Shown: positions 5,849-19,952 of the stretch, in pieces
How the letters are laid out: every line of letters begins with the position of its first letter
How positions within the stretch are numbered: the first letter of the stretch is position 1
Origin: Ruminococcus flavefaciens
Lineage (GTDB): Bacteria > Bacillota > Clostridia > Oscillospirales > Ruminococcaceae
Reading direction: 5' to 3'
DNA: 47,469 bases
NCBI GenBank assembly: GCA_902777125.1
Contig: CACYSQ010000004.1
Location: forward strand, 1 to 47,469
The notes under the pieces: generated by a model
What the model was told of the DNA's origin: nothing
The model's database searches: none
What the model saw: the letters and a program-made list of their open reading frames with translations, nothing else
Program-made: the position numbers and the translations under genes

Positions 5849-7054
5849 TTATAGCAGCATTATTATGAATTGCTCCGTGAGGACTACTGATATCAGTGCG
5901 ACAGGATAAGTTGCAGCGTAGGCAGATGCAACGTCCTCTGTTCCGGCTGTGGAAATGAGCGTACCGAGTGCCGGTGTGGAGGTCATACCGCCTGTGATAG
6001 AGCCGAGGTTGTTGAGGAGGCTGAGCTTCAGCACATATTTCGCAAACAGGAAGCCGATTATCATGGGCACGATAGTCATTATCATACCGTATACGAAGTA
6101 TATCGGCTTGAAGTATTCAACGAACTTCGCGCCGCCCTTTACGCCTGAACCGATAAGGAACAGCATAAGTCCGAGCTCACGGAGGACCTTCAATGTGGTG
6201 TCCTTCGGCATGAGACTGATCTTTCCGCAGTGACCGAAATGTCCGAAGATAAGGCATACGAGCAGACAGCCGCCTGTGGTCGAGAGCGAGAAGTTCTCGA
6301 ACTTGAATGAGCCGATGACGATACCGATAACGGCTGCAAGTGCGAACGGCATAAGTCCGAAGCTGTCTATAGATATGAGCTTCTCCTGAGTGTTTTTCTT
6401 TGCGGACTCCTTGTTTGTGGATTTCAGCAGCTCGCGTTCCTTATTCATGTCCGCCTTAATCATCTTGGGAACGAGCTGTACAAAGAGCACAACGCCGATA
6501 ACGCCGAAGATATAGGCTATACCCGAGCCGACCGATACTGCGTCCTCAAGCTCCTTTCCGGCAGCCTCCTTAGCAGCTGAAAGTCCGGGGGTGCTTGTGA
6601 GCGAGCCGGAGAGTATACCTGACATAAGAGCCGTAAATTCGTCGTTTCCGAGACTTGTGAAGTTCCTGCCGACGAGTATGCAGCCCGCACAGGCAAGTCC
6701 GCCGCTGAGAATAATGATTATCGCAAGTGCAACGAAGGACTTGAAGTTTTTCTTGAAGTTGCTGAAAAAGTTCGGACCCGCAATGAAGCCTACCGCCGAT
6801 ACGAAAAGTACAAGTCCGAGAGTATCGACTATAGAAAGGGAATTTTTCACGAACGCATCGCCCATTTCCCTTTTGAGGTCGTCGTAGAAAACGCCGCCGT
6901 AGACGAGGGCGATGAGGAAAACTCCGGCAGTTCCGAGGGAAACGCCCTTGATCTTTATCCTGCCGAGGATATATCCTACTGCCGCGATAGCCATAACTGA
7001 TATGATGAGGAACGTTACTCCCTTTATAGAGAGTATACCGTCAAATAATTCCAT
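5849..7054 (-). CDS. AspT/YidE-type (AAE family) carboxylate transporter, candidate succinate exporter
   Basis: The membrane protein has about 401 residues and ten or more hydrophobic segments. Each half carries the repeat signature of the aspartate:alanine exchanger fold: SGSLTSTPGLSAAKE in the first half and GGMTSTPALGTL in the second. Canonical AspT, YidE and YbjL have about 540-560 residues with central TrkA-C domains. Here only a short basic hydrophilic loop stands in that place. This family includes the succinate exporter SucE of Corynebacterium. With fumarate reductase ending 57 bp upstream, succinate export is a reasonable inference. A GTG at 7063 is an alternative start. Confidence 0.75.
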   Translation of the reverse strand: MELFDGILSIKGVTFLIISVMAIAAVGYILGRIKIKGVSLGTAGVFLIALVYGGVFYDDLKREMGDAFVKNSLSIVDTLGLVLFVSAVGFIAGPNFFSNFKKNFKSFVALAIIIILSGGLACAGCILVGRNFTSLGNDEFTALMSGILSGSLTSTPGLSAAKEAAGKELEDAVSVGSGIAYIFGVIGVVLFVQLVPKMIKADMNKERELLKSTNKESAKKNTQEKLISIDSFGLMPFALAAVIGIVIGSFKFENFSLSTTGGCLLVCLIFGHFGHCGKISLMPKDTTLKVLRELGLMLFLIGSGVKGGAKFVEYFKPIYFVYGMIMTIVPMIIGFLFAKYVLKLSLLNNLGSITGGMTSTPALGTLISTAGTEDVASAYAATYPVALISVVLTEQFIIMLL

Positions 7055-7091
7055 ATTTACCACACAATCTTTCTTTTATTTAACGTAACAG

Positions 7092-7119: not shown

Positions 7120-8724
7120 TTACTTTGATTTTCTCGCATAGTGAGGGAGAAGCATGGGTGAAGGTGTCTCCCCTGCTGCACCGGCAGCCTCAAGCTCCTT
7201 GTGGAAGCTCTCGATGTGGTCGAGGTTAAGACCTGTCGGCTCGGCAGTCTCCTTAGCCTTGGCAGCAGCATAGATACCTGCGTTTCTGCCGAAAACGATA
7301 ACGTCGAGGAGGGAGTTGCCCATGAGACGGTTCCTTCCGTGGATACCGCCTGCGACCTCACCTGCAGCGTAAAGGTTCTCAACACCGGTAGAGCAGTCCT
7401 CAGCGATGTCAAGTCCGCCGTTCTGGTAGTGGAGGGTAGGATAAACGAGGATCGGCTCCTTGCGGATATCAATGCCGTACTTGCCGAACATACGCATCAT
7501 AGCAGGTATGCGCTTCTCGATAGTACCCTCACCGTGGATATACTCGATCATAGGAGTATCGAGCCATATGGACTTTCCGAGGCCTGTCTCGATGCCCTTG
7601 TTGCGGGCTGTACACTCGCGGATTATTGATGCAGCGGTAACGTCTCTGGTCTCGAGGGGGTGCATGAATACATCACCGTCGATATTGACGAGCTTTGCGC
7701 CGAGAGAACGCACCTTCTCGGTAACGAGAGCACCGAATATCTGCTCGGGATAGCCTGTACCTGTCGGGTGATACTGGAGCGTGTCAGCGTAGAGGAGCTT
7801 TGCACCGACTCTATAGCCGAGGATAAGTCCGTCAGCAGTAGCACCGTAGTGGTTCGATGTCGGGAAGCCCTGATAGTGCAGTCTGCCTGCACCGCCTGTT
7901 GCGATGATGACCGTCTTAGCCTTTGCAACGAGCAGCTCCTTTGTCTCCATATTCATGAGAACAGCACCGGCAGCCTTTCCGTTTTTGTCGAGGATAAGCT
8001 CAACTGCGGCTGTGAAGTCGATAACGGGTATCCCCCTGTTGAGCACCTCGTCACGGAGAGTACGCATGATCTCAGCACCGGAATAGTCCTTTGCAGCGTG
8101 CATACGCTTGCGGGAGGTACCGCCGCCGTGAGTTGTGACCATAGTACCGTCGGCTTCCTTATCAAACTCTACTCCGAGCTTGTTGAGCCAGAGAATAGCC
8201 TCGGGAGCCTTTGTAACGAGCTTTCTTACGAGCTCGGGCTTTGCAGCGAAATGTCCGCCTCCGAAAGCGTCAATAAAGTGGATAGCAGGCGAATCATTGG
8301 GCTTATCGGCAGCCTGAATACCGCCCTCCGCCATCATGGTGTTTGCATCACCGATACGGAGCTTTGTAACTATCATTGCCTTTGCACCGGCTTCGTCTGC
8401 CTCTATAGCTGCGGAAGCACCTGCTCCGCCGCCTCCGATTATGAGCACATCGGTCTCATAGTCGGGCTTGCTGAGGTCAACGTCAGCTGCACTGATACGG
8501 CTTTTTCCCTGTAGAAGTGCCGCAAGCTGAGTCGGCACCTTGTCGCCCTTGTTCACGCCGGCTGAAAGCACTGTGAACTCGTCCTGCTTGTAATCCGGGT
8601 GGAATTCAGCAAGGAGAGCATCCTTTTCCTCAGCGGTCATTCTTCTGGGTTCGAGTGCAGCGTTCGCAGCTCTCTTTTCAGCAACTACTTTTGCAAGCTC
8701 ATTGAGCTTTTCGATCTTGTACAT
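7120..8724 (-). CDS. frdA: Soluble fumarate reductase flavoprotein subunit
   Basis: The 534-residue FAD enzyme belongs to the succinate dehydrogenase/fumarate reductase family. The dinucleotide motif GGGGAG is at about 97-102, AEGGIQAA at 132-139, the substrate-site HPTG at 319-322, and the C-terminal RNRLMGNSLLD block near 475. The His that binds FAD covalently in membrane-bound Frd/Sdh is missing (DANTMMAEGG), so the flavin should be non-covalent, as in soluble enzymes such as methanogen TfrA. About 90 residues precede the FAD fold, an unusual extension. It is the last gene of the fumC-hdr-flx-frd operon. No membrane anchor subunit is present. Direction as fumarate reductase is inferred from context. 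Confidence 0.88.
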   Translation of the reverse strand: MYKIEKLNELAKVVAEKRAANAALEPRRMTAEEKDALLAEFHPDYKQDEFTVLSAGVNKGDKVPTQLAALLQGKSRISAADVDLSKPDYETDVLIIGGGGAGASAAIEADEAGAKAMIVTKLRIGDANTMMAEGGIQAADKPNDSPAIHFIDAFGGGHFAAKPELVRKLVTKAPEAILWLNKLGVEFDKEADGTMVTTHGGGTSRKRMHAAKDYSGAEIMRTLRDEVLNRGIPVIDFTAAVELILDKNGKAAGAVLMNMETKELLVAKAKTVIIATGGAGRLHYQGFPTSNHYGATADGLILGYRVGAKLLYADTLQYHPTGTGYPEQIFGALVTEKVRSLGAKLVNIDGDVFMHPLETRDVTAASIIRECTARNKGIETGLGKSIWLDTPMIEYIHGEGTIEKRIPAMMRMFGKYGIDIRKEPILVYPTLHYQNGGLDIAEDCSTGVENLYAAGEVAGGIHGRNRLMGNSLLDVIVFGRNAGIYAAAKAKETAEPTGLNLDHIESFHKELEAAGAAGETPSPMLLPHYARKSK

Positions 8725-8736
8725 ACTCTCTCCCCC

Positions 8737-9420
8737 TTATTTCTCGATCTCGCGGTTATTGTACATAGCCTTGATCTCGTCGATATTGTCTACCGCCTTG
8801 ACCATGAGCTCCTCGATCTTCTCATCGAAGATGCCCTCGTTGATCTCCTTGACGCGATCGCTGAGATGTCCGCACTCAGGCTCGATGTACTTGCCGTTGA
8901 GACGTCTTGCGAGCATAGCGACCTGCGGGTGCGAGATGCCTGCGGGACATCGTGAGGAGCATACTCCGCACATAACGCAGTCGAAGCTCTCCTCGGCGCA
9001 CTTGTCGTACTCACCGCGCTGTGCATAGGCGATGTACTGCATAACGTTGAGCTCCTGAGTGCAGGCCTTAGTGCAGGCGTTGCAGCCTATGCAGGCGTAA
9101 ATCTCGGGATAGAGCTGCATCATGACCTGCTGATCGGGGCGTATCTCCTCTATATTGTAGGTCCTTTTTTCGAGCGGGAAGAACGGCAGCGTTGCAACGT
9201 ACATATTCTCCTGGACCTCTGTCTGACAGGCAAGGCAGCCGTGGAGCTGTGATTCGCCCTTTATCCTGTAGATAGTTGCACAAGCACCGCAGAAGCCGTT
9301 TCGGCAGCCGCAGCCTCTTACAAGCTCATAGCCGGCATATTCCATAGCTGTCATTATCGTAAGACCTGACGGCACCTGATACTTCTTGCCGAACAGATAA
9401 ACATTTATCATATTATCCAT
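8737..9420 (-). CDS. frdB: Fumarate reductase iron-sulfur subunit (TfrB N-terminal-like)
   Basis: The 227-residue electron-transfer protein has a plant-type 2Fe-2S domain (CGCRNGFCGAC with the distal CLAC, about 37-70) and a ferredoxin-like domain with CIGCNACTKAC and CVMCGVCSSRCP. The order resembles FrdB/SdhB and the N-terminal half of thiol:fumarate reductase TfrB, but the C-terminal CCG (HdrB-like) half of TfrB is absent. It should pass electrons to the flavoprotein encoded 12 bp downstream. The start is the ATG behind AGGAGG; the frame extends seven codons further without a ribosome binding site. Confidence 0.86.
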   Translation of the reverse strand: MDNMINVYLFGKKYQVPSGLTIMTAMEYAGYELVRGCGCRNGFCGACATIYRIKGESQLHGCLACQTEVQENMYVATLPFFPLEKRTYNIEEIRPDQQVMMQLYPEIYACIGCNACTKACTQELNVMQYIAYAQRGEYDKCAEESFDCVMCGVCSSRCPAGISHPQVAMLARRLNGKYIEPECGHLSDRVKEINEGIFDEKIEELMVKAVDNIDEIKAMYNNREIEK

Positions 9421-9437
9421 TATTGTACCTCCTGAGA

Positions 9438-10265
9438 TCAATACTCGTCCGGCAGCTCGCCGAGCTGATCGAAACGGAATACGGGACCGTCCTTGCAGAC
9501 GTACTTATTGCCGATATTGCATCTTCCGCACTTGCCCACGCCGCACTTCATGCGAAGCTCCATAGTGGTGTAGACCTGTGTCTCCTTGAAGCCGAGCTCC
9601 TTGAGACCGGCAAGGGTGAACTTTATCATTATCGGAGGTCCGCAGATAAGAACTGTCTTGTTTATGGAAGGATCGAGCTCCTTGACATAGTTGGGAACGA
9701 AGCCCACATGGCCGTCCCAGCCCTCCTGAGCGTTGTCGATAGTGAGATCGACCTCAACGCCGTCATCAGTCATCCACTCATTGAGTATCTCCTGATAGTC
9801 AACGAGGTCGTCCTTTGAACGGGAGCCGTAAATGATCTGTATATCGCCGTAGTTCTCACGCTTGTCACGGACGTAGTTGATGACAGAACGGAGAGGTGCA
9901 AGACCGATACCGCCGGCAATAAAGAGAAGGTCCTTGCCCTTCAGCTCAGTTTCCACGGGGAAAGCGTTGCCGTAGGGACCTCTCACGGTTATCATCTGTC
10001 CTACCTCCATAGCGTGGAGCCATTCGGTGAGACAGCCGCACTTTTTTATGCTGAATTCCATGAATTCCTTGTTCGTGGGCGAGGAGGTTATCGAGAACAT
10101 CGCCTCGCCGACGCCGGGTATCGAGAGCATCGCGCACTGTCCGGGCATATGCTCGAAGAGCTTTCCGCCCTCGGGAGCTTCAACGCGGAAGGTCTTTACA
10201 TCGGGGGTATCAATGCGGATATCTGTGACAACGCCGACGTATGGTATCAATGTATCGTTATTCAT
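9438..10265 (-). CDS. flxA: FlxA-like FAD/NAD(H) oxidoreductase subunit
   Basis: The 275-residue protein has the ferredoxin-NADP reductase fold: FAD segment FSITSSP, nucleotide segment GGIGLAPLRS and CGPPIM. A C-terminal 2Fe-2S site (CGVGKCGRC and a later Cys) resembles that of PyrK, HydG and AsrB. In Flx-Hdr complexes this subunit takes the hydride from NADH. The ATG follows GGAGGACAAGTG and overlaps the flxB stop (TGATG), so translation is coupled. AsrB of sulfite reductase is the alternative, but no AsrC is present. Confidence 0.85.
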   Translation of the reverse strand: MNNDTLIPYVGVVTDIRIDTPDVKTFRVEAPEGGKLFEHMPGQCAMLSIPGVGEAMFSITSSPTNKEFMEFSIKKCGCLTEWLHAMEVGQMITVRGPYGNAFPVETELKGKDLLFIAGGIGLAPLRSVINYVRDKRENYGDIQIIYGSRSKDDLVDYQEILNEWMTDDGVEVDLTIDNAQEGWDGHVGFVPNYVKELDPSINKTVLICGPPIMIKFTLAGLKELGFKETQVYTTMELRMKCGVGKCGRCNIGNKYVCKDGPVFRFDQLGELPDEY

Positions 10266-11284
10266 CACTTGTCCTCCAATGCTTTCATTACCTTGACTAT
10301 ATTCATGGATATCGGACACTTCGACAGGCATCTGCCGCAGCCGACACAGCCGAATTCGCCGTTATTGTTTGCCGGGAAGTACACAAGCTTGTGCATGAAG
10401 CGCTGACGGAAACGTTCGAGCTGAGTAAGTCTCGGATTGCCGTGAGCCATTTTGGTGAAATCGGAATACATACACGAATCCCAGCAGCGGTAGCGCTTTA
10501 TGCCGTTTCCGGTATTGAAGTCCTTGATGTCGTAGCACTGGCAGGTGGGACATACAAAGGTACAGGTACCGCAGCCGAGACAGCTCTCTGAGAGCTCAGC
10601 CCACTTGTCGGAGTTGAAGTATTCGTTGAGCTTGTCACCGCCGAAATTCTCGGTGGAGAGGTTTGCAAGCGGGAGCTTCTTCATTATTTCCCTTGTCCTT
10701 GCGACGGTACTGTCGAGCTCAGCGGTATCGCCTTCTTCGAGGAGGCCAGCTATGCTGTCAATGAAAACCTGTCCCTTTTCGGTATTAGCCTTGAAATAGT
10801 AATAGTTACCGGCTTTCCAGCAGGCGCAGTCACCCTCGGGAGCAGTCGGGTCGATGCCGAATGTCTGGCAGAAGCAGGTCTCGGCAGGGCGGCTGCAAGC
10901 CATAGTAACAACCGTTCCGTGGTCGCGGCGGTTCTTGTAGAAGCTGTCAACAGGGTCAACAAGGTATACCTTATCGAGTATGGTGAAACTCCTCGCATCG
11001 CAGGCACGGACGCCGAATATCACGAAGTCCTCGCACTCTTTGCGGATATCGTTTACCTCTATCTTCTTGCCGTCCATTCTGAACTCAACGATGTCCTCAG
11101 TCTGGGGGAAGAAGAAGTCCTTGGCGCTGCGGAGGGTATTCAGACGGCTCGTGAGCTTCATGCCGGACACATACTTTTTGTACTCAGCCTCGCCGTCCTC
11201 GCGGTCAGCAGGGATATAGAGCGCCTGCTTTGCAGCTATCGCCTCAAACAGACTGTCTAACTTATCAGCAGATATTCTCAGCAT
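10265..11284 (-). CDS. flxB: FlxB-like 4Fe-4S dicluster subunit (AsrA/HydB family)
   Basis: The product has 339 residues. The N-terminal half is the AsrA/HydB-type domain, with GVRACDARSFTILDKV around 95-110 and a Cys-rich stretch CSRPAETCFC. The C-terminal half has two ferredoxin clusters, CLGCGTCTFVCP and CVGCGRCLSKCP. It should relay electrons between FlxA and FlxD/HdrA. Its start overlaps the flxC stop by one base (TAATG) and its stop overlaps the flxA start, typical of a stoichiometric complex. Confidence 0.82.
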   Translation of the reverse strand: MLRISADKLDSLFEAIAAKQALYIPADREDGEAEYKKYVSGMKLTSRLNTLRSAKDFFFPQTEDIVEFRMDGKKIEVNDIRKECEDFVIFGVRACDARSFTILDKVYLVDPVDSFYKNRRDHGTVVTMACSRPAETCFCQTFGIDPTAPEGDCACWKAGNYYYFKANTEKGQVFIDSIAGLLEEGDTAELDSTVARTREIMKKLPLANLSTENFGGDKLNEYFNSDKWAELSESCLGCGTCTFVCPTCQCYDIKDFNTGNGIKRYRCWDSCMYSDFTKMAHGNPRLTQLERFRQRFMHKLVYFPANNNGEFGCVGCGRCLSKCPISMNIVKVMKALEDK

Positions 11285-12255
11285 TACTCCACTCCCCTTT
11301 CGTGAACGATGCTTGCCTCGCAGTCGTCTGTAGTATATTCATTGAGCGGTGCCTTTGAGGTGGTATCGGCACCCGCCTGATATTCGCCGTAGAGAGAGTT
11401 GATGTCCTTGATGAACTTCCTGTTGAGAAGGTGGAGCGGAATGTGCTGGGGGCATACCCTTGAGCACTCGCCGCAGTCGGTACATCTTCCGGCAACGTGG
11501 AATGCGCGGATAATATGGAACATATTCTCCTCGAAGCTGTCGGCAGGAGCCTTGTTGTCGATACCGGACTTCGGGTTGTCAAATACGCAGTTCTCACAGG
11601 TGCAGGCAGGACAGACATTGCGGCAGGCATTGCACCTGATGCACTTGGAAAGCTCGCTTCTCCAGAAGTCATAGCGTTCCTGAGAGGTCATATTCTCGAG
11701 CTTTTCGACCATATCGAAACGGTTAGAATCGAGAACATCGCCCTCCTCACCCATGAGCTCGTCATAGGTAACGTGCTTCTTGCTCTTGCAGGAGGCGCAC
11801 TTGTCCATGATAGCCTCATAGAAGGGCAGCTCCTCGGTGCCGTAAATGGTCTCGACCTTTATGGTGTAGTTCTCGTTCCTCACGTTGGTGATACCGGTGA
11901 TGCCCTTAGCCTTTATCTTCTCGATATCGAGCTTGGGACCTCCGGGAACGCCAATAACGTAGATATTGTCACGGTCAACGCGGTGCTCCTTTGTGAGCTG
12001 GTTGAGGCTGTAGGTGTCGCAGGGCTTCAGGAACGCAAGCACCTTGCCCTCCTTACGGCTCTCCTTGACGAGATACTTTGAAACGTTCGCAGCTGTGAAA
12101 TCATCGAACACGAAGTCCCTGTCAAGCTCATCGGCAGTCTCAAATACAGCCGGAGTTATATCATAGGCGAATTCTCCCCTTTTCCAGCCGATAACGCGCT
12201 TGACGGTGCCGTCGGCGAGGAGCTGCTTCGCTCTTTCGATCATTGCTTTCTGCAT
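11284..12255 (-). CDS. flxC: FlxC-like 4Fe-4S subunit (FrhB/dicluster family)
   Basis: The 323-residue product has an N-terminal domain with KPCDTYSLNQLT and IGVPGG segments like F420-hydrogenase beta and formate dehydrogenase accessory proteins. A CASCKSKKH motif lies mid-protein. Two ferredoxin clusters follow, CIRCNACRNVCPACTC (with an extra downstream Cys) and CTDCGECSRVCP. The tail of about 50 residues is acidic and polar. GGAGG lies seven bases before the ATG. The gene overlaps flxD by 16 bp. Confidence 0.8.
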   Translation of the reverse strand: MQKAMIERAKQLLADGTVKRVIGWKRGEFAYDITPAVFETADELDRDFVFDDFTAANVSKYLVKESRKEGKVLAFLKPCDTYSLNQLTKEHRVDRDNIYVIGVPGGPKLDIEKIKAKGITGITNVRNENYTIKVETIYGTEELPFYEAIMDKCASCKSKKHVTYDELMGEEGDVLDSNRFDMVEKLENMTSQERYDFWRSELSKCIRCNACRNVCPACTCENCVFDNPKSGIDNKAPADSFEENMFHIIRAFHVAGRCTDCGECSRVCPQHIPLHLLNRKFIKDINSLYGEYQAGADTTSKAPLNEYTTDDCEASIVHERGVE

Positions 12256-12686
12256 CTGAGATCCTCCAATCTGCGGTTAGGACCGAGCTTTCTTACAGCC
12301 TCGGTGAACTCGTTCATCGTTGCGGCAAACTTTGCACCCTCAGCGGCAGATACCCATTCTACCCTTGTCCTGTCCCTCTCGATGCCGAGGAAATCAAGCA
12401 TACTGAACAGCAGGGTCATTCTTCTTCTCGTGAAGTAGTTGCCGGAGGTATAGTGGCAGTCTCCGGGGTGGCAGCCGCAGAGGATAACTCCGTCAGCGCC
12501 TCTCTGGAAAGCGCGGAGAATGAACATGGGGTTTACTCTGCATGAGCAGGGCACTCTTATTATCTTGACATTGGTCGGATAATTCAGTCTGTTCGTACCT
12601 GAGAGGTCAGCTCCCGCATACGAACACCAGTTGCAGCAGAACGCAACTATGAGCGGCTGAAAATCTTTGTTATCGTTTACTTGCAT
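12240..12686 (-). CDS. flxD: FlxD / MvhD-like 2Fe-2S subunit
   Basis: The 148-residue protein belongs to the MvhD family, which in methanogens docks electron donors onto HdrA. Conserved cysteines are CCNWC (17-21), VPCSC and LCGCHPGDC; the RRRMTLL segment is also family-typical. It connects the NADH-oxidising FlxABC part to HdrA. Its reading frame overlaps hdrA by 10 bp and flxC by 16 bp, so the genes are translationally coupled. Confidence 0.88.
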   Translation of the reverse strand: MQVNDNKDFQPLIVAFCCNWCSYAGADLSGTNRLNYPTNVKIIRVPCSCRVNPMFILRAFQRGADGVILCGCHPGDCHYTSGNYFTRRRMTLLFSMLDFLGIERDRTRVEWVSAAEGAKFAATMNEFTEAVRKLGPNRRLEDLRCRKQ

Positions 12687-14668
12687 ATCGCGTCTACCTC
12701 CGCCATGATCTGCCTGTTAGAGAATCCGTTGAGATCCATTGCACCGGACGGGCAGGCTACCGTGCAGGCGCCGCAGCCCTGACATACAGCAGGATTTACG
12801 CTTGCTACACGGCGAACCTTTGTGGTGCGGTCGGGCATTCTGAATTCCTTGTCGATGTAAGTGATAGCTCCGTAGGGACAAACCTTTTCGCAGGACGAGC
12901 AGCCGTTGCACATGAGCTCGTCCGAATGAGCAACGCAGGGATTGCAGGTGATGCTGTTCTTGCAGAGGAGCCCGATAGCCTTTGCAGCAGCGGCAGAAGC
13001 CTGTGCTACGGTCTCCGGGATATCCTTGGGTCCCTGACAGGCACCGGAGAGGAATATTCCGGCGGTAGCGCTCTCAACGGGACGGAGCTTCGGGTGAGCC
13101 TCTGTGAAGAAGTCGTTGGTGTCCATCTGAGTGGTGAGCATCGTCGCAAGCGGGCGGGCAGTCTTGTCCGGCTCGATAGCGGCAGCAAGAACGACCATGT
13201 CCGCATTTATGTGGAGCTGCTCGTTTGCGAGGAGGTCGGAAGCCTGAACGTCTATCTTGCCGTCGGACTTGGGCGTTACCTTGCCGACCATGCCCTTGAT
13301 GTAGTGAACATTGTACTGTTCAACTGCACGGCGGTAGAATTCGTCAAAGTTCTTGCCGGGAGTACGGACGTCGATGTAGAAGACGTAGACCTCGGTATCG
13401 GGATATTTCTCGCGTATGAGCATCGCGTGTTTAGCTGTGTACATACAGCATATCTTCGAGCAGTAGGGCTTGCCCTTGCTGTCATCGCATCTTGAACCTA
13501 CGCACTGTACGAAAACGATAGTGTGAGGGTGAGACTTGTCCGAGGGACGGAGAAGCGTTCCGCCGTTAGGACCGGCAGCGTTCATAAGTCTCTCGAGCTC
13601 GAGGGACGTAACAACGTCCGGACACTGATTATAGGCAAATTCATCGTACTGGTCAAGCTTTATCGGGTCAAAACCTGTCGCCACGACGATAGCACCGTAC
13701 TGCTGCTCAATGAACCTGTCCTGCTGCTTGTAGTCGATAGCGCCGACTGAGCAGACCTTTGAGCAGACGCCGCACTTGCCGCTTTTCAGCATCATGCAGT
13801 AGTTCGGGTCGATAGTTGCGACCTTCGGAACCGCCTGTGCGAACGGGATATAAACAGCGCTCCTGTTGTCAAGACCCATGTTGAACTCGTTGGGTACCTT
13901 CTTCATCGGACATTTCTCTGTGCAGAGTCCGCAGCCGGTACACTTAGTCTCGTCAACAAAACGAGCCTTCTTCTTTATCTTGACTGTGAAGTTTCCGACG
14001 AAGCCCTTGACCTCTGTGACCTCACTGAAAGAGTGTATCGTGATATGCTCGTTCTGCGAAGCCTCGACCATTTTAGGAGTGAGGATACAGGCGGCACAGT
14101 CGAGCGTCGGGAAGGTCTTGTCTATCTGAGCCATTTTGCCGCCGATAGTGGGCTTCTTCTCAACGATGTCAACATCGAAGCCTGCCTCAGCGATATCGAG
14201 GGCAGTCTGTATACCGGCAATGCCTCCGCCGATAACGAGGGCTCTCTTTACCACAGGGCTCTCACCGGCTGTGAGCGGTGCATTGAGGTGTACCTTTGCA
14301 ACAGCGGCTCTGCCGAGGATAACAGCCTTTTCGGTAGCTGTAGCGATATCCTTATGTATCCATGAGCACTGCTCGCGGATATTGGCTATCTCAACGAGAT
14401 AAGGATTAAGTCCGGCGGCAGCGGCAGCTTTTCTGAATGTATTCTCGTGCATACGCGGTGAGCACGAGCAGATAACGATACCTGTGAGCTTATGCTCCTT
14501 TATGGCGTTCTTGACGAGGTTCTGTCCGGATTCGGAGCACATATACTGGTAGTCCTGCGAGATAACAACGCCCGGCTCATGGCCGAGTGCCTCTGCAACA
14601 GCCTTTACATCGACGGTCGCAGCGATATTCGTACCGCAGTGACAGACAAACACACCTATTCTCTGCAT
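12677..14668 (-). CDS. hdrA: Heterodisulfide reductase subunit A-like, flavin bifurcation subunit
   Basis: The product has 663 residues. The N-terminal domain holds CHCG (9-12) and CSCSPRMHE. The FAD domain has GGGIAGIQTALD near 147-158 and the family motif CAACILTPKMVE. An inserted ferredoxin has CTGCGLCTEKCP and CGVCSKVC. The C-terminus has two further clusters, CNGCSSCEKVCP and CQGCGACTVACP. HdrA carries the FAD that splits electron pairs between a low-potential ferredoxin branch and the HdrBC branch. Its length and order match bacterial HdrA. AAGGAGG precedes the ATG. Confidence 0.9.
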   Translation of the reverse strand: MQRIGVFVCHCGTNIAATVDVKAVAEALGHEPGVVISQDYQYMCSESGQNLVKNAIKEHKLTGIVICSCSPRMHENTFRKAAAAAGLNPYLVEIANIREQCSWIHKDIATATEKAVILGRAAVAKVHLNAPLTAGESPVVKRALVIGGGIAGIQTALDIAEAGFDVDIVEKKPTIGGKMAQIDKTFPTLDCAACILTPKMVEASQNEHITIHSFSEVTEVKGFVGNFTVKIKKKARFVDETKCTGCGLCTEKCPMKKVPNEFNMGLDNRSAVYIPFAQAVPKVATIDPNYCMMLKSGKCGVCSKVCSVGAIDYKQQDRFIEQQYGAIVVATGFDPIKLDQYDEFAYNQCPDVVTSLELERLMNAAGPNGGTLLRPSDKSHPHTIVFVQCVGSRCDDSKGKPYCSKICCMYTAKHAMLIREKYPDTEVYVFYIDVRTPGKNFDEFYRRAVEQYNVHYIKGMVGKVTPKSDGKIDVQASDLLANEQLHINADMVVLAAAIEPDKTARPLATMLTTQMDTNDFFTEAHPKLRPVESATAGIFLSGACQGPKDIPETVAQASAAAAKAIGLLCKNSITCNPCVAHSDELMCNGCSSCEKVCPYGAITYIDKEFRMPDRTTKVRRVASVNPAVCQGCGACTVACPSGAMDLNGFSNRQIMAEVDAICK

Positions 14669-14682
14669 TCTTGCGCTCCTCC

Positions 14683-15066
14683 TTACTTAGCGTACTTCCT
14701 GAGAGCCGTAACGATAGCCTGCTGCGGCAGATCGTCATCGAGCATATCAGGTATCATGTCGGGGGTAAGACGGTTCCCGCCCTGCTGACGAACTGCCGCA
14801 AGACGTACAGCCTCGACTACCTTTGCAGGCTCGACGTTTCTCGGACACCTGTCAACGCAGGCAAAGCAGGTCAGGCACTTGTAAAGCGACTCCGACTTCA
14901 TCAGCTTTTCGATATCGCCCTTTTCCACCATGTAGACGAACTGGTGCGGGTGGTATTCCATTTCATCGTAGGAAGGACAGGTCGCTGAGCATTTGCCGCA
15001 GCGCATACATTTGAGGACGTTCACTCCGCTCGAACGGAGGACCTGTTCCTTGATATTCTTATTCAT
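14683..15066 (-). CDS. hdrC: Heterodisulfide reductase subunit C-like, 4Fe-4S dicluster
   Basis: The 127-residue protein has two classical clusters, CMRCGKCSATCP (about 20-31) and CLTCFACVDRCP, with helical sequence between. It is shorter than archaeal HdrC (near 190 residues), lacking part of the C-terminal tail. It should carry electrons from HdrA to HdrB. The start follows AAAGGAGG and the gene overlaps hdrB by 8 bp. Confidence 0.86.
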   Translation of the reverse strand: MNKNIKEQVLRSSGVNVLKCMRCGKCSATCPSYDEMEYHPHQFVYMVEKGDIEKLMKSESLYKCLTCFACVDRCPRNVEPAKVVEAVRLAAVRQQGGNRLTPDMIPDMLDDDLPQQAIVTALRKYAK

Positions 15067-15856
15067 TGCTTGCCTCCTTTAAGCCGAGAGCTTCAGCGAG
15101 CATCTCGGTGAAATAGAAGACCGGCAGCTCTGAGCCGGAATTTTTCTTCAGGTTGTAAAGGCACAACGGACAGGCAGTTATCACCATGTCGGCACCCTGA
15201 TCGGCTGCGGACTCCATGACCGCACTGCTCCTCTTCTGAGCCTGAGCCTTGTCCTCCATAGTGATGTAGCCGCCGCAGCACTCATTGCGCTGAGCGTAGA
15301 TGACGGGAATTCCGCCGATAGCCCTGATGAAATCCTCCATAATGGTGGGATTTTCGGGATCGTCCATAGCGAGAGCCTTTGAGGGACGTAGCAGCAGGCA
15401 GCCGTAGTAAGCGGCGATTTTCTTGCCCTTGAACGGGTTCACTACCTTTTCGCTGAGCTTGTCAAAGCCTATAACATCGCGGAGGAGTTCAAGGTAATGG
15501 TAAACTGTGGTCTCACCGGTATAAGCCTCGGGAAGCCGGAGGTAATTGTTCACCTTCGCAGCCATGTCCTCATCGCGGGAAATATCGTAATTAGTCTGCT
15601 TTATGACGTTGTGGCAGGCGGAACAGACGGTAACGAGAGGTCTGCCGAGCTCCTTTGCAGCGTTGAGCGTCCTTACGGCAGAAAGCTTCGTAGCTATCTC
15701 GTCCTTAGCGGTAGTGTAGGCACCGCCGCAGCACTGCCAGTCGGCAGGCTCCTCAAGAGCTATCCCCAGAGCCTCAGCCGATACTCTTGCATATGTATCG
15801 AGGTCCTTAGCCTTTGTGCGGAGCGTACAGCCGGGATAATATGTAAATGTTTCCAT
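15059..15856 (-). CDS. hdrB: Heterodisulfide reductase subunit B-like, two CCG domains
   Basis: The 265-residue protein has two CCG modules. The first is YPGC (7-10), CCGG (42-45) and CSAC. The second is YYGC, ECCGG and CPLC. In HdrB each module binds a non-cubane 4Fe-4S cluster that cleaves a disulfide. Here the terminal acceptor is unknown, and the neighbouring frdAB suggests fumarate. GAAAGGA precedes the ATG, 17 bp after the fumC stop. Confidence 0.88.
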   Translation of the reverse strand: METFTYYPGCTLRTKAKDLDTYARVSAEALGIALEEPADWQCCGGAYTTAKDEIATKLSAVRTLNAAKELGRPLVTVCSACHNVIKQTNYDISRDEDMAAKVNNYLRLPEAYTGETTVYHYLELLRDVIGFDKLSEKVVNPFKGKKIAAYYGCLLLRPSKALAMDDPENPTIMEDFIRAIGGIPVIYAQRNECCGGYITMEDKAQAQKRSSAVMESAADQGADMVITACPLCLYNLKKNSGSELPVFYFTEMLAEALGLKEASNE

Positions 15857-15873
15857 AGCACTTTCCTTTCATT

Positions 15874-17250
15874 TCAGCACATCTGCTCGGGGTGGAATAC
15901 CTCGTCGAACTTCTCGGCAGTGAGGAAGCCGAGCTCTACGCAGGCTTCCTTGAGGGAAATATTGTCCTTGAAAGCCTTCTTAGCGGTCTTTGCAGCGTTC
16001 TCATATCCGATGTACGGATTGAGAGCGGTAACGAGCATGAGCGAATTGTGGAGATTGTGGTGCATCTTCTCCCTGTTAGCCTTGATGCCGACTGCACAGT
16101 TCTTGTTGAAGCTGAGAATTGACTCGGCAAGCAGTCTTGCGGACTGGAGGAAGTTGTAAGCGCACACAGGCATGAACACGTTCAGCTCGAAGTTGCCCTG
16201 TGAGGCAGCCATTCCGACAGCAACGTCATTGCCCATGACCTGAACAGCGACCATAGTTACCTGCTCACACTGGGTGGGATTTACCTTGCCAGGCATGATA
16301 GACGAACCCGGTTCGTTCTCAGGAATGAATATCTCGCCGAGACCGTCTCTCGGTCCGGAAGCGAGCCATCTTACGTCGTTAGCGATCTTCATCATATCAG
16401 CGGCAAGAGCTTTGAGGGCGCCGTGTGCGAAAACTATCTCGTCCTTTGAAGTGAGGGAGTGGAACTTGTTGGGAGCTGTAACGAACCTCTTTCCTGTGAG
16501 GTTGCTGATAGCTTCGGCTGACTTCTCAGCAAATCCGGCAGGCGCATTGAGACCTGTTCCGACTGCTGTACCGCCGAGAGCAAGCTCCTTGAGCTCCTCG
16601 CATGAGCTGACGAGCATTTTTCTGTCCTTTTCGAGGGAGGCTTTCCAGCCGCTTATCTCCTGAGAGAACTTGATAGGAGTTGCGTCCTGCAAATGAGTTC
16701 TTCCGCTCTTGACGATACCCTCGTTCTCAGCTTCGAGACGTCTGAAGGTATCAACGAGCGTGTCTATAGCGGGGATAACCTTGTCCTCAACGGCAAGAAC
16801 CGCGGCAATGTGCATTGCAGTCGGGAAGGTATCGTTCGAGGACTGGCTCATATTTATATCATCGTTCGGGTGGAGGAGCTTCTCGCCAGCGATCTCGTTT
16901 CCGCGGTTGGCGATGACCTCGTTAGCGTTCATATTCGACTGTGTACCGCTTCCGGTCTGCCAAACGACAAGCGGGAAATGCTCATTGAGAGCACCGCTGA
17001 TGACCTCATCGCAAGCCTGTGAAATAGCGTCAAGCTTCCTGTCAGTCATTTTTTCGGGTTTGAGCTCGTTATTGGCGATAGCGGCAGCCTTTTTAAGGAT
17101 ACCGAAGGCGTGGGTTATCTCTCGCGGCATAGTCTCGATGCCTACGCCAATGAGGAAATTCTCATGGCTGCGCTCAGTCTGGGCAGCCCAGTACTTATCG
17201 GCAGGCACTTTGACCTCGCCCATAGAATCGTGTTCAATACGGTAATCCAT
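15874..17250 (-). CDS. fumC: Fumarate hydratase, class II
   Basis: It interconverts malate and fumarate. The 458-residue length and the signature GSSIMPGKVNP identify the fumarase/aspartase superfamily; the TGSGTQSNMNANEV and GRTHLQDATP blocks point to class II fumarase. I start at the ATG behind GGAGTGGATACT; the frame runs ten codons further upstream without a ribosome binding site. It heads the hdr-flx-frd operon and so supplies the substrate of the reductase encoded by the last genes. Aspartase is the alternative, but QSNMNANEV and context favour fumarase. Confidence 0.92.
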   Translation of the reverse strand: MDYRIEHDSMGEVKVPADKYWAAQTERSHENFLIGVGIETMPREITHAFGILKKAAAIANNELKPEKMTDRKLDAISQACDEVISGALNEHFPLVVWQTGSGTQSNMNANEVIANRGNEIAGEKLLHPNDDINMSQSSNDTFPTAMHIAAVLAVEDKVIPAIDTLVDTFRRLEAENEGIVKSGRTHLQDATPIKFSQEISGWKASLEKDRKMLVSSCEELKELALGGTAVGTGLNAPAGFAEKSAEAISNLTGKRFVTAPNKFHSLTSKDEIVFAHGALKALAADMMKIANDVRWLASGPRDGLGEIFIPENEPGSSIMPGKVNPTQCEQVTMVAVQVMGNDVAVGMAASQGNFELNVFMPVCAYNFLQSARLLAESILSFNKNCAVGIKANREKMHHNLHNSLMLVTALNPYIGYENAAKTAKKAFKDNISLKEACVELGFLTAEKFDEVFHPEQMC

Positions 17251-17288
17251 AGTATCCACTCCAGTAAAAATTTTGGGCACAGAGCCCC

Positions 17289-17364: not shown

Positions 17365-17382
17365 TTGATATATTCTTAACAA
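17365..17382. promoter_or_regulatory. Rex-like operator upstream of fumC
   Basis: TTGATATATTCTTAACAA matches 12 of 14 defined positions of the clostridial Rex consensus TTGTTAA-N4-TTAACAA. It lies 115 bp upstream of the fumC ATG and about 47 bp from the candidate -35 box. The rex gene itself is the next gene upstream. Function is inferred. Confidence 0.5.
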
Positions 17383-17712: not shown

Positions 17713-18354
17713 TCATTTGTTTTCGTACATCGTATTCAGCCCGTAGGACAGCGTCGTAAGGCTGTCCCCGAGGTGAACGTTCTCAACTATGATGTCCTTG
17801 TGTCCGATGCGAAGATCGTAGTGCGTGAAGTTCCAGAAGGCCTTCACGCCGTAGCTTATAAGCATTTCGGCAGTACCCGAAGCAGCGCTCGTAGGAACGC
17901 AGAGTATCGCCGCGACCGGCTTTTTCTCCGCGCAGAACTCGGCAAGCCCGGAGGTGTCCATAACAGTGATGCCTGCTATGCTCTTCCCTATTATCTCAGG
18001 ATTTACGTCGAATGCACCGATAAGCGAAAAGCCCTTGCTGTTGAAGTCAAGATGCGTAGCGATCGCTTTTCCGAGGTTTCCGGCACCTATCAGTATCATC
18101 GGAGTCTGTCTGCTGAGACCGAGGATCTTGCCTATCTCCTCTCTGAGGTCACTGACATTGTAGCCGTAGCCCTGCTGTCCGAATTCGCCGAAGCAGTTGA
18201 AATCCTGCCTTATCTGTGAAGCGGTCAGCCCCATTTTCTCCGAGAGTTCACGCGAGGAAATGCGGACATAGCCGTTTGTCTCAAGCTCGCCGAGAAAGCG
18301 GTAATACCGCGGCAGTCTCCTTATGACAGAATTTGAGATAGTGTTTTTTGACAT
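17713..18354 (-). CDS. rex: Redox-sensing transcriptional repressor Rex
   Basis: The 213-residue protein has an N-terminal winged helix (about 1-80; RYYRFL, ISSRELSEKMGLTASQIRQD and GYNV are family hallmarks) and a Rossmann domain with GAGNLGKAI near residue 95. It ends in the domain-swapped helix (LSYGLNTMYE). Rex senses NADH/NAD+ and represses fermentation and fumarate-respiration genes when NAD+ dominates. It is the last gene of the acn-icd operon, 24 bp after icd, and its promoter carries a Rex-like site, suggesting autoregulation. Confidence 0.96.
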   Translation of the reverse strand: MSKNTISNSVIRRLPRYYRFLGELETNGYVRISSRELSEKMGLTASQIRQDFNCFGEFGQQGYGYNVSDLREEIGKILGLSRQTPMILIGAGNLGKAIATHLDFNSKGFSLIGAFDVNPEIIGKSIAGITVMDTSGLAEFCAEKKPVAAILCVPTSAASGTAEMLISYGVKAFWNFTHYDLRIGHKDIIVENVHLGDSLTTLSYGLNTMYENK

Positions 18355-18378: not shown

Positions 18379-19590
18379 TCACATCAGCTTGTCGAGCCTG
18401 AGCTTTATCTCGTCAAGGAAGGTCTTGGAATCGACCTTTTTCTTATTCTCAAGCTTGGATATGAGGTAAAGGTCGCCGGTCATAACGCCGTCCTCGATAG
18501 TCTGGATAGTAGCCTTTTCGAGCTTGTCAGCGAAAGCACAGAGCTCAGGTGTACCGTCGAGCTCTCCCCTCTTGCGGAGGGCACCGCTCCATGCGAAGAT
18601 AGTTGCAACGGAGTTTGTGGAGGTCTCCTCGCCCTTGAGGTACTTGTAGTAGTGGCGCTGAACTGTTCCGTGAGCAGCCTCGTACTCATAGATGCCGTCC
18701 GGAGAAACAAGCACGGAGGTCATCATAGCAAGGCTACCGTAAGCAGTTGATACCATATCGGACATAACATCGCCGTCATAGTTCTTGCAAGCCCAGATGT
18801 ATCCGCCGTTTGAACGGATAACACGCGCTACAGCGTCGTCGATGAGGGTGTAGAAATACTCTATCCCGGCAGCCTCGTACTTCTCCTTGTACTCCTTCTC
18901 GAATATCTCAGCGAAGATATCCTTGAAGCGGTGGTCGTACTTCTTGGAGATGGTGTCCTTTGAAGCGAACCAAACGTCCTGCTTGAGGTCGAGACCGTAG
19001 TTGAGGCAGGCTCTTGCGAAGCCGGCGATAGAATCGTCAAGGTTGTGAAGTCCCTGAATGATACCGTCACACTTCTTGAAATCATGGATAAGCTCGCGCG
19101 TCTCGTTGCCGTTCTCATCGGTAACGACAAGCTCAGCCTTGCAGCCCTTGTTCACGCGCATCTCGGTGTTCTTGTAAACGTCGCCGTAAGCGTGACGGGC
19201 AATGGTGATAGGCTTGGTCCATGTGGGGATATAGGGCTCGATGCCCTTAACGATGATAGGTGTACGGAAAACAGTTCCGTCGAGAGCCGCACGGATAGTA
19301 CCGTTAGGCGACTTCCACATCTGTGTAAGGTTGTACTCAGGCATTCTTGCGGCATTAGGAGTGATAGTAGCGCACTTTACAGCTACGCCGTACTTCTTTG
19401 TAGCCTCAGCGGAATCGAGAGTTACCTGGTCCTTGGTCTCCTCACGGTGAGCAAGACCGAGGTCGTAATATTCAGTATTGAGCTCAACATAGGGCTCAAG
19501 AAGAGTTTCCTTAATCCACTTCCAGAGGATTCGGGTCATCTCATCGCCGTCCATTTCGACAAGCGGAGTTTTCATAGTAATTTTAGCCAT
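18379..19590 (-). CDS. icd: NADP-dependent isocitrate dehydrogenase
   Basis: It converts isocitrate to 2-oxoglutarate and CO2 with reduction of NADP+. The 403 residues match the eukaryote-like type II subfamily: [16 protein letters not shown] at the N-terminus, the substrate block [17 protein letters not shown], and the Asp-rich metal site [23 protein letters not shown] precedes the ATG. With aconitase in the same operon it forms the oxidative arm that feeds glutamate synthesis; citrate synthase is not in the window. Confidence 0.95.
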
Positions 19591-19609
19591 TGGGATAACC
19601 TCCTTTTAT

Positions 19610-19723
19610 TCAGACCGTCAGCACCAGCAGTGCTATAACAGTAAAAATCACACTCATGGTCTCAACTTTTTTGCTGCTCCAGCTTTTTATACGAAATCCA
19701 TGCCTTCTGAGCATCTGAAACAT
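19610..19723 (-). CDS. 37-residue membrane microprotein in the acn-icd operon
   Basis: The short frame starts at an ATG seven bases behind a perfect AAGGAGG and ends 19 bp before the icd start. The N-terminal half is basic (MFQMLRRHGFRIKSWSSKK) and the C-terminus is one hydrophobic helix (MSVIFTVIALLVLTV). This is the shape of a single-pass inner-membrane microprotein. The ribosome binding site overlaps the stop codon of the preceding small gene, so the two are coupled. Function unknown. Confidence 0.6.
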   Translation of the reverse strand: MFQMLRRHGFRIKSWSSKKVETMSVIFTVIALLVLTV

Positions 19724-19735
19724 TTCAGTGCCTCC

Positions 19736-19951
19736 TTATCTGAAAAGCGGTATAAGGAGAAGTATGACAAGCCCGAGCAGGAGCAGCGTCCCGACCGTGT
19801 CAAAGACCTTCTGACCGGTGCTGAGCTTGCCGTACTGCATGGATTTGTATATTTTCAGCACCCACACGGCAAGGAGCAGGACCGCAAGGAACAAGAGAAA
19901 TCCGAGTCCGCCCTTTGCCGAAGCTGTGCTGCCTTTTATTATGAGAGACAT
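19736..19951 (-). CDS. 71-residue two-helix membrane protein in the acn-icd operon
   Basis: The product has two hydrophobic helices (about 16-34 and 52-70) joined by a basic loop (KIYKSMQYGKLSTGQK). The ATG is one base past the aconitase stop codon (TAATATG), so translation probably depends on termination-reinitiation; only a weak GAGAG lies upstream. No family recognised. Its position between aconitase and isocitrate dehydrogenase is curious. Confidence 0.6.
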   Translation of the reverse strand: MSLIIKGSTASAKGGLGFLLFLAVLLLAVWVLKIYKSMQYGKLSTGQKVFDTVGTLLLLGLVILLLIPLFR

Positions 19952-19952
19952 A

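Follow-up and report, generated by a model that had tools for sequence, protein, structure and literature searches.

The operon discussed here lies in a window of 47,469 nucleotides, the whole stretch of DNA that was analysed, which corresponds to forward-strand positions 1 to 47,469 of contig CACYSQ010000004.1 in the Ruminococcus flavefaciens assembly GCA_902777125.1. A head-to-tail run of ten minus-strand genes occupies positions 7120-17280 in the order fumC-hdrB-hdrC-hdrA-flxD-flxC-flxB-flxA-frdB-frdA, that is, a fumarase, the subunits of a Flx-Hdr complex and a soluble fumarate reductase (Table 1). The close packing of these genes, noted in a preliminary description made from the sequence, is borne out by their positions, by the expected domains and by intergenic gaps of -16 to +17 base pairs (bp), and purine stretches resembling ribosome-binding sites were seen by eye at the gene starts. 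With corrected starts, flxA probably begins at 10265, frdB at the ATG at 9420 and fumC at either the ATG at 17250 or the GTG at 17280. The operon proteins mostly score below the curated NCBIfam cut-offs, which were set with methanogen or quinone enzymes in view, although domain searches still fit the names given. Likewise, assignment to the Flx-Hdr type follows from domain content together with gene order, the equivalog cut-offs of the methanogen models not being reached.

Table 1. Features of the operon and its immediate surroundings in the window
Feature	Position	Strand	Evidence
AspT/YidE/YbjL-type permease, possible succinate exporter	5849..7063	-	PF06826 203 bits; TIGR01625 138.9 vs cut-off 71.95
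frdA, soluble fumarate reductase flavoprotein, ~88-residue N-terminal extension	7120..8724	-	PF00890
frdB, 2Fe-2S + two 4Fe-4S clusters	8737..9420	-	domain matches; candidate ligand cysteines
flxA, NAD(P)H/FAD/2Fe-2S electron input	9438..10265	-	PF00175, PF10418
flxB, 4Fe-4S protein (sulfhydrogenase/AsrA beta type)	10265..11284	-	PF17179; NF040829 169.9 bits, cut-off 690 not reached
flxC, 4Fe-4S protein	11284..12255	-	domain search, conserved Cys; no specific model
flxD, MvhD/FlpD-type link to HdrA	12240..12686	-	PF02662 186.5 bits
hdrA, putative bifurcating FAD/4Fe-4S subunit	12677..14668	-	NF040770 802 bits, cut-off 1100 not reached
hdrC, two 4Fe-4S	14683..15066	-	domain search, conserved Cys
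hdrB, two CCG domains	15059..15856	-	PF02754
fumC, class II fumarase	15874..17280	-	TIGR00979 705.4 vs cut-off 664.75
Rex-box-like inverted repeat upstream of fumC	17365..17382	.	2 mismatches to a clostridial consensus
rex, NADH/NAD-sensing repressor, possible regulator	17713..18354	-	NF003990 280 vs cut-off 233

Linkage within the Clostridia

Among named genomes, the best matches belong to Ruminococcus flavefaciens and to Ruminococcus bins, largely of rumen or gut origin, with FrdA identities of up to 95% among the matches listed. In the best 80 of at least 582 relatives in the named genome collection, counting only loci whose contig reaches the gene in question, frdB is found in 80/80, flxA in 78/78, flxB in 77/77, flxC in 76/76, flxD in 75/75, hdrA in 74/74, hdrC in 69/69, hdrB in 68/68 and fumC in 66/68. 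A sample of 391 genomes of the class (Clostridia), which may share species with the named set and is not independent of it, contained FrdA in 54 genomes including the window's own (E <= 1e-60; 60-100% identity). The surroundings were examined for the other 53 genomes, which gave 54 loci. Where the contig reaches, frdB is present in 52 of 52, flxA in 51 of 52, hdrA in 46 of 47 and hdrB in 41 of 42, each miss being the same locus, L163. This apparent exception without Flx was rejected on extending the locus (as L166), which holds every gene in a different order: class I fumarase, frdB, frdA, hdrB, hdrC, hdrA, flxD, flxC, flxB, flxA. A search of the class sample with FlxC recovered all 54 FrdA genomes and four further ones, namely a 62%-complete bin, in which the 5,340-base contig stops inside flxA, and three with distant, partial matches of 30-34%.

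On these comparisons the ten-gene block is not a chance neighbourhood, because frdBA stands with flxABCD-hdrABC wherever the contig reaches, reordered in one locus, and because FlxC is found in every FrdA genome. The preliminary description had called for a survey of the co-occurrence of hdr-flx and frdAB; within the class, over the 54 FrdA genomes and as far as the contigs reach, the linkage proved unbroken. A bin titled Treponema (L076) also has the operon, its FrdA being 79% identical, which may reflect either transfer or mis-binning.

With regard to the neighbouring gene that would form fumarate, the 53 class genomes present fumC (class II) upstream in 20 cases and a class I fumarase within the examined stretch in 18. 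Neither was found in the remaining 15, of which ten have contigs that end before the fumC position, with the other side only partly covered; no fumarase was found in L147, L150, L153, L158 and L159, for which a longer stretch was examined. In Ilyobacter polytropus the other nine genes of the operon recur in unchanged order, at 43-68% identity, behind a gene of the aspartate ammonia-lyase type, whose product scores 681.5 bits with one aspartase subfamily model against a cut-off of 510, just below the aspA equivalog cut-off and far below that for fumC. FumC and aspartase are related lyases, matched both by the TIGR00979 and aspA models, and class I fumarase is unrelated to them. The fumarate-forming gene nearby is interchangeable (FumC, class I fumarase or aspartase type), which points to fumarate as the substrate. 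The Ilyobacter copy lies at 3861-14602 of L291, on the megaplasmid pILYOP01 of this fusobacterial species, and its gene order suggests transfer between phyla.

Cofactor sites and genome context

FrdA carries the FAD_binding_2 domain, and its best NCBIfam match is TfrA, at 343 bits against a cut-off of 718. In an alignment to E. coli SdhA (1nek), the dicarboxylate-site residues H319, R339, H432 and R466, two histidines and two arginines that we take to be those of the fumarate catalytic site, are invariant in 41 rows. The position of the histidine that carries covalent FAD is occupied by Asn128, also invariant in 41 rows, so that this mark of the quinol enzymes is absent. An identity as L-aspartate oxidase was considered and rejected, since FrdA reaches only 269 bits with the nadB model, against 435 for the genome's other homologue (cut-off 453); that NadB-like protein is the sole other FrdA homologue found in the genome at E <= 1e-3. 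In FrdB all twelve candidate ligand cysteines are present in 132 of 132 rows, and a domain search found no CCG (HdrB-like) domain.

HdrB has its ten candidate ligand cysteines in every row covering them (110-111 rows), HdrC its eight in 112 of 112 and FlxC its fourteen in 122 of 122, and HdrA keeps nearly all of its cysteines, with a few varying across rows. FlxA is an NAD-binding, DHODB-type Fe-S protein by domain search. The best NCBIfam match of HdrB is the SdhE subunit of 8-methylmenaquinol:fumarate reductase (146 bits), followed by the HdrB model (135 bits), both under cut-off; the top matches of HdrC and HdrA are heterodisulfide reductase models and those of FlxB sulfhydrogenase beta-subunit models, again under cut-off. 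The HdrA model NF040770 also covers a FlxD-like part, to which the FlxD of the operon matches. Since both of its cluster-ligand sets are complete, HdrB is not vestigial, and it could serve either as an electron conduit or as a thiol-disulfide site.

As for possible acceptors, DsrC was over cut-off in none of the 54 FrdA genomes, with one weak sub-threshold match and a positive E. coli control. UbiA-type prenyltransferases, a proxy for quinones only, were over cut-off in 5 of 54 genomes and gave any match in 8, the window's own genome giving none. The operon contains no membrane anchor gene, the search for a fumarate reductase anchor having been confined to it. Possible uses for reduced ferredoxin are offered by RnfC, which passes its cut-off in 27 of 54 genomes including the window's own, and by a [FeFe]-hydrogenase-type protein in that genome, which is over the Pfam and under the NCBIfam cut-off. 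The same genome holds a GTP-dependent phosphoenolpyruvate carboxykinase over cut-off, gave no match for the ATP-dependent enzyme, and has one protein of the lactate/malate dehydrogenase family, which passes the cut-offs of models bearing either name.

FrdBA outside the class and its repeated joining to Flx-Hdr

A sample of 299 genomes across the phylum yielded 52 with FrdA matches. Besides the window's own, 29 hold the N-terminally extended type (49-65% identity, in 30 places), and 22 hold only matches of 34-41% that lack the extension. Sorting of the 30 places, done partly by eye, gave full Flx-Hdr in 5, HdrABC plus FlxD and a gene resembling flxC, with FlxAB lacking, in 8 (one of them, L249, cut short), only HdrC-HdrB in 2 and no clear Hdr genes near FrdA in 15. 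Among these 15, a weak HdrC-like ferredoxin match of 23-27% was found in L259, L268 and L269, and L264 is cut short. The frdB gene adjoins frdA in 28 of the 30 places, being absent from L263, while L264 ends there. At E <= 1e-10, a FlxC match was present in 26 of the 29 genomes, at whatever position, and lacking in 3. Among the FlxC places away from frdBA, 17 carry an Flx-Hdr set in their own right, in some cases with two HdrA genes. A rule that FrdBA always accompanies Flx-Hdr was thus rejected outside the class, given the Hdr-free places, the genomes without FlxC and the separate Flx-Hdr sets, and FrdBA and Flx-Hdr are separable modules.

The places differ considerably in their other neighbours. 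L245-L249, L251, L252 and L262 combine hdrCBA (incomplete in L249) with FlxD and a FlxC-like gene and have no FlxAB alongside; by eye, L248 also has a second HdrA/QmoB-like protein and genes resembling 2-oxoglutarate:ferredoxin oxidoreductase, and L262 has sucCD-like genes. Loci of this kind, these two included, resemble the arrangement in tubeworm symbionts considered below. A hdrC-hdrB-frdB-frdA unit adjoined by neither HdrA nor Flx is found at 6595-10224 of L260 and 8461-12069 of L265, and is possibly a split thiol:fumarate reductase; each of the two genomes holds a separate Flx-Hdr set (L281, L286). In L257, L259, L267, L268 and L269, FrdBA adjoins FMN-binding, cytochrome c or b, and ferredoxin-type membrane redox proteins (by eye), which could make these quinone-linked versions of the same head. 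On a Cupriavidus metallidurans megaplasmid (L292, 5315-8887; record unannotated), homologues of FrdB (31%) and FrdA (48%) are followed by what appear by eye to be a NuoF-like gene and a dicarboxylate-carrier-like gene. The FrdA proteins of L240, L241 and L254, from the genomes without a FlxC match, lie on exceptionally long branches, as though released from a partner.

In a FrdA tree of 83 rows (51 from the class, 30 from the phylum, the window and a NadB outgroup), built by a quick method and with some long branches, the Flx-Hdr label takes 5 changes, at least 4 of them forced by well-supported branches. A concatenated HdrA+FlxB+FlxC tree comprised 48 rows, with linkage labelled from synteny: 36 linked ones chosen from full-set loci and 12 unlinked ones. 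The unlinked rows were drawn from 17 places, five of which were left out because they were cut short or had two HdrA sets. Here the FrdBA-linked sets fall into three groups that match three gene orders, the third group being a single long-branched row. Constraining the linked sets to one clade was rejected (p-AU 2.3e-6; 4.7e-6 without three long rows, L266 among them). These trees support repeated joining of FrdBA to Flx-Hdr, the alternative being that they joined early and later split and rearranged. A wider reading, still tentative, would see FrdBA as an exchangeable fumarate-reducing output head, joined more than once to NADH-bifurcating Flx-Hdr. Its partners elsewhere would be Hdr sets that lack FlxAB, HdrBC by itself, membrane redox proteins and possibly a NuoF-like protein. 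Flx-HdrABC-FrdBA would then be a convergently assembled, soluble, quinone-free and ferredoxin-charging form of fumarate respiration in gut cellulose degraders.

Proposed reaction, alternatives and known systems

The operon probably encodes a cytoplasmic, NADH-dependent and ferredoxin-reducing soluble fumarate reductase, for which we infer the complex, electron path, bifurcation, stoichiometry, export and regulation alike. FlxA would take a hydride from NADH, and electrons would pass via FlxB, FlxC and FlxD to the flavin of HdrA. HdrA would split the pair, sending one electron to ferredoxin and one via HdrC and HdrB to FrdB and then to the FAD of FrdA. Two electrons arriving there in this way would reduce fumarate supplied by FumC. 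The net reaction would be 2 NADH + fumarate + 2 ferredoxin(ox, one-electron) -> 2 NAD+ + succinate + 2 ferredoxin(red), with a calculated standard free energy of -33 to -49 kJ/mol at E(Fd) of -0.50 to -0.42 V. The ferredoxin potentials entered here are general background values. Those for NAD and fumarate are also given in PMC5861303.

The preliminary description had put forward this coupling of NADH, ferredoxin and fumarate; the composition is confirmed and the coupling is the best-supported reading, but its novelty and a fixed tie to FrdAB did not survive. The accompanying suggestion that fumarate replaces DsrC agrees with the absence of DsrC over cut-off, the lack of a UbiA match in the own genome, the complete ligand sets, the intact fumarate site and the adjoining fumarase or aspartase-type genes. 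It does not hold as a fixed trait of FrdAB, as shown by the outside-class places without clear Hdr genes (15 of 30) and genomes without FlxC (3 of 29). These Hdr-free places, five of which adjoin membrane redox genes (by eye), weigh against a single bifurcating complex, although most of the genomes concerned carry a Flx-Hdr set at another position. The same holds for the lack of fusions between FrdB and any Flx or Hdr subunit across 135 scanned loci and for the retention of both HdrB cluster-ligand sets, which is compatible with a thiol or disulfide substrate. The separability of the modules disfavours an obligate tie, yet the unbroken linkage within the class is the more telling.

The complete HdrB ligand sets would also suit two enzymes in one operon, an arrangement we consider unlikely, in which Flx-Hdr would work with NADH, ferredoxin and a small disulfide or redox protein, and FrdAB would be fed by a reduced thiol or carrier as a split thiol:fumarate reductase. 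The methanogen TfrA is indeed the best, if sub-threshold, NCBIfam match of FrdA, and the L260 and L265 units stand without adjoining HdrA or Flx in genomes that have a separate Flx-Hdr set. However, FrdB lacks the HdrB-like domain of TfrB, so HdrB would still be needed, none of the 54 genomes has DsrC over cut-off, and no carrier gene was seen in the operon. The Hdr-free FrdBA places, together with the Cupriavidus relative beside an apparent NuoF-like protein (by eye), recall instead a FrdAB fed without bifurcation, directly by NADH through FlxABCD or by ferredoxin, with HdrABC as a mere relay. This is improbable, as HdrA is kept wherever the contig reaches, with nearly all cysteines intact, and a pure path from NADH to fumarate would presumably have no need of seven further subunits. 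Reverse operation in vivo, from succinate and reduced ferredoxin to NADH, or reduction of another acid by FrdA, would fit the outside-class FrdBA-Hdr units that adjoin 2-oxoglutarate:ferredoxin oxidoreductase-like or sucCD-like genes (L248, L262; by eye), but seems very remote, given that a fumarase or aspartase-type gene adjoins in most judgeable loci, that the fumarate-site residues are intact and that R. flavefaciens is a known succinate producer.

For the NADH-dependent, ferredoxin-reducing fumarate reductase preferred here, the flanking genes could provide export and control. The permease gene lies 56 bp downstream of frdA and may belong to the operon, in which case it would export succinate, its presumed cargo, while Rex would tune the operon to NADH. 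A Rex-box scan, scored against a clostridial consensus, found sites with <=3 mismatches in 32 of 85 loci, against 6.05 expected from base shuffles, or in 30 of 83 without L017 and L027, for which a far longer stretch was scanned and without which the expected number would be lower too. Only 18 of the 85 loci have a repeat like the Rex box similarly placed, 92-163 bp upstream of fumC, and all are Ruminococcus-type near copies, so that Rex control is possible with lineage-limited support. Directly upstream of rex, genes for NADP-isocitrate dehydrogenase and aconitase (window 18379-21890) form a partial tricarboxylic acid (TCA) cycle neighbourhood.

If the proposed reaction is correct, succinate formation in cellulose degraders of the R. 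flavefaciens type would not only dispose of NADH but also generate reduced ferredoxin, usable for Rnf ion pumping or for H2, and the accounting of ATP and hydrogen would change for a sizeable share of gut Clostridia (FrdA in 54 of 391 sampled class genomes). It would also offer a testable, quinone-free mode of energy conservation from fumarate in named strains such as R. flavefaciens FD-1 and Ilyobacter polytropus DSM 2926.

Several known systems share parts of this operon. All seven subunits of FlxABCD-HdrABC in Desulfovibrio, reportedly described by Ramos in 2015, are held in common, but the output there is said to be DsrC, whereas the window operon has FrdAB and no DsrC was over cut-off. 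The methanogen TfrAB is a soluble flavoprotein fumarate reductase with a HdrB-type partner that uses CoM-SH and CoB-SH; its HdrB-like part is fused into the single chain of TfrB, whereas HdrB and FrdB are separate here. The quinol:fumarate reductase FrdABCD shares the catalytic residues of FrdA and differs in that the window operon has no membrane anchor gene and its FrdA no covalent-FAD histidine. Furthermore, FrdB of the quinol enzyme carries a 4Fe-4S and a 3Fe-4S cluster, in contrast to the two four-cysteine 4Fe-4S motifs of the window FrdB.

A literature search found no biochemical demonstration of the coupling, although subscription literature was little covered and an assay may exist elsewhere. 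The fumarate reductase of Blautia luti was measured with methyl viologen, and the accessible text of that report mentions neither Flx nor heterodisulfide (PMC12773636). Similarly, the accessible parts of PMC9044749, PMC6776011, PMC10579422, PMC5861303, PMC13014828, PMC11736642 and PMC6037941 describe no such complex or assay. In tubeworm symbionts and Thioflavicoccus, according to PMC6315080, tfrAB is interspersed with korABCD and flxABCD-hdrABC, and one complex of Flx-Hdr, Kor and Tfr was suggested for the symbionts. The likeness lies in this suggested joining of Flx-Hdr to a Tfr-like fumarate reductase, but the setting there is a reductive TCA cycle with 2-oxoglutarate:ferredoxin oxidoreductase, which the window operon lacks.

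The closest precedent shows that the preliminary description was wrong to know of no enzyme of this composition, since the same operon and coupling had been proposed for Pseudoclostridium thermosuccinogenes. In PMC7282089, the 'succinate operon' of this species comprises fumarate hydratase, Flx-Hdr and fumarate reductase along with a transporter possibly for succinate, with gene content and order, by that description, as in the window. Ferredoxin-linked fumarate reduction via Flx-Hdr is assumed there rather than demonstrated, citing a 2019 preprint (10.20944/preprints201912.0288), together with a redox argument from H2 inhibition and an approximately 4-fold upregulation of the operon under CO2 limitation that was not significant for every subunit. 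P. thermosuccinogenes is a thermophile, for which genetic access is reported in PMC9044749, whereas the window genome is R. flavefaciens-like and has rex adjoining the operon. The operon is thus real, widely conserved and of a kind already proposed in print; what is added here is its breadth in the class, the portrayal of FrdBA as a portable module often found apart from Hdr genes outside the class, and the finding that FrdBA-linked Flx-Hdr sets occur in three gene orders and do not fall into one clade.

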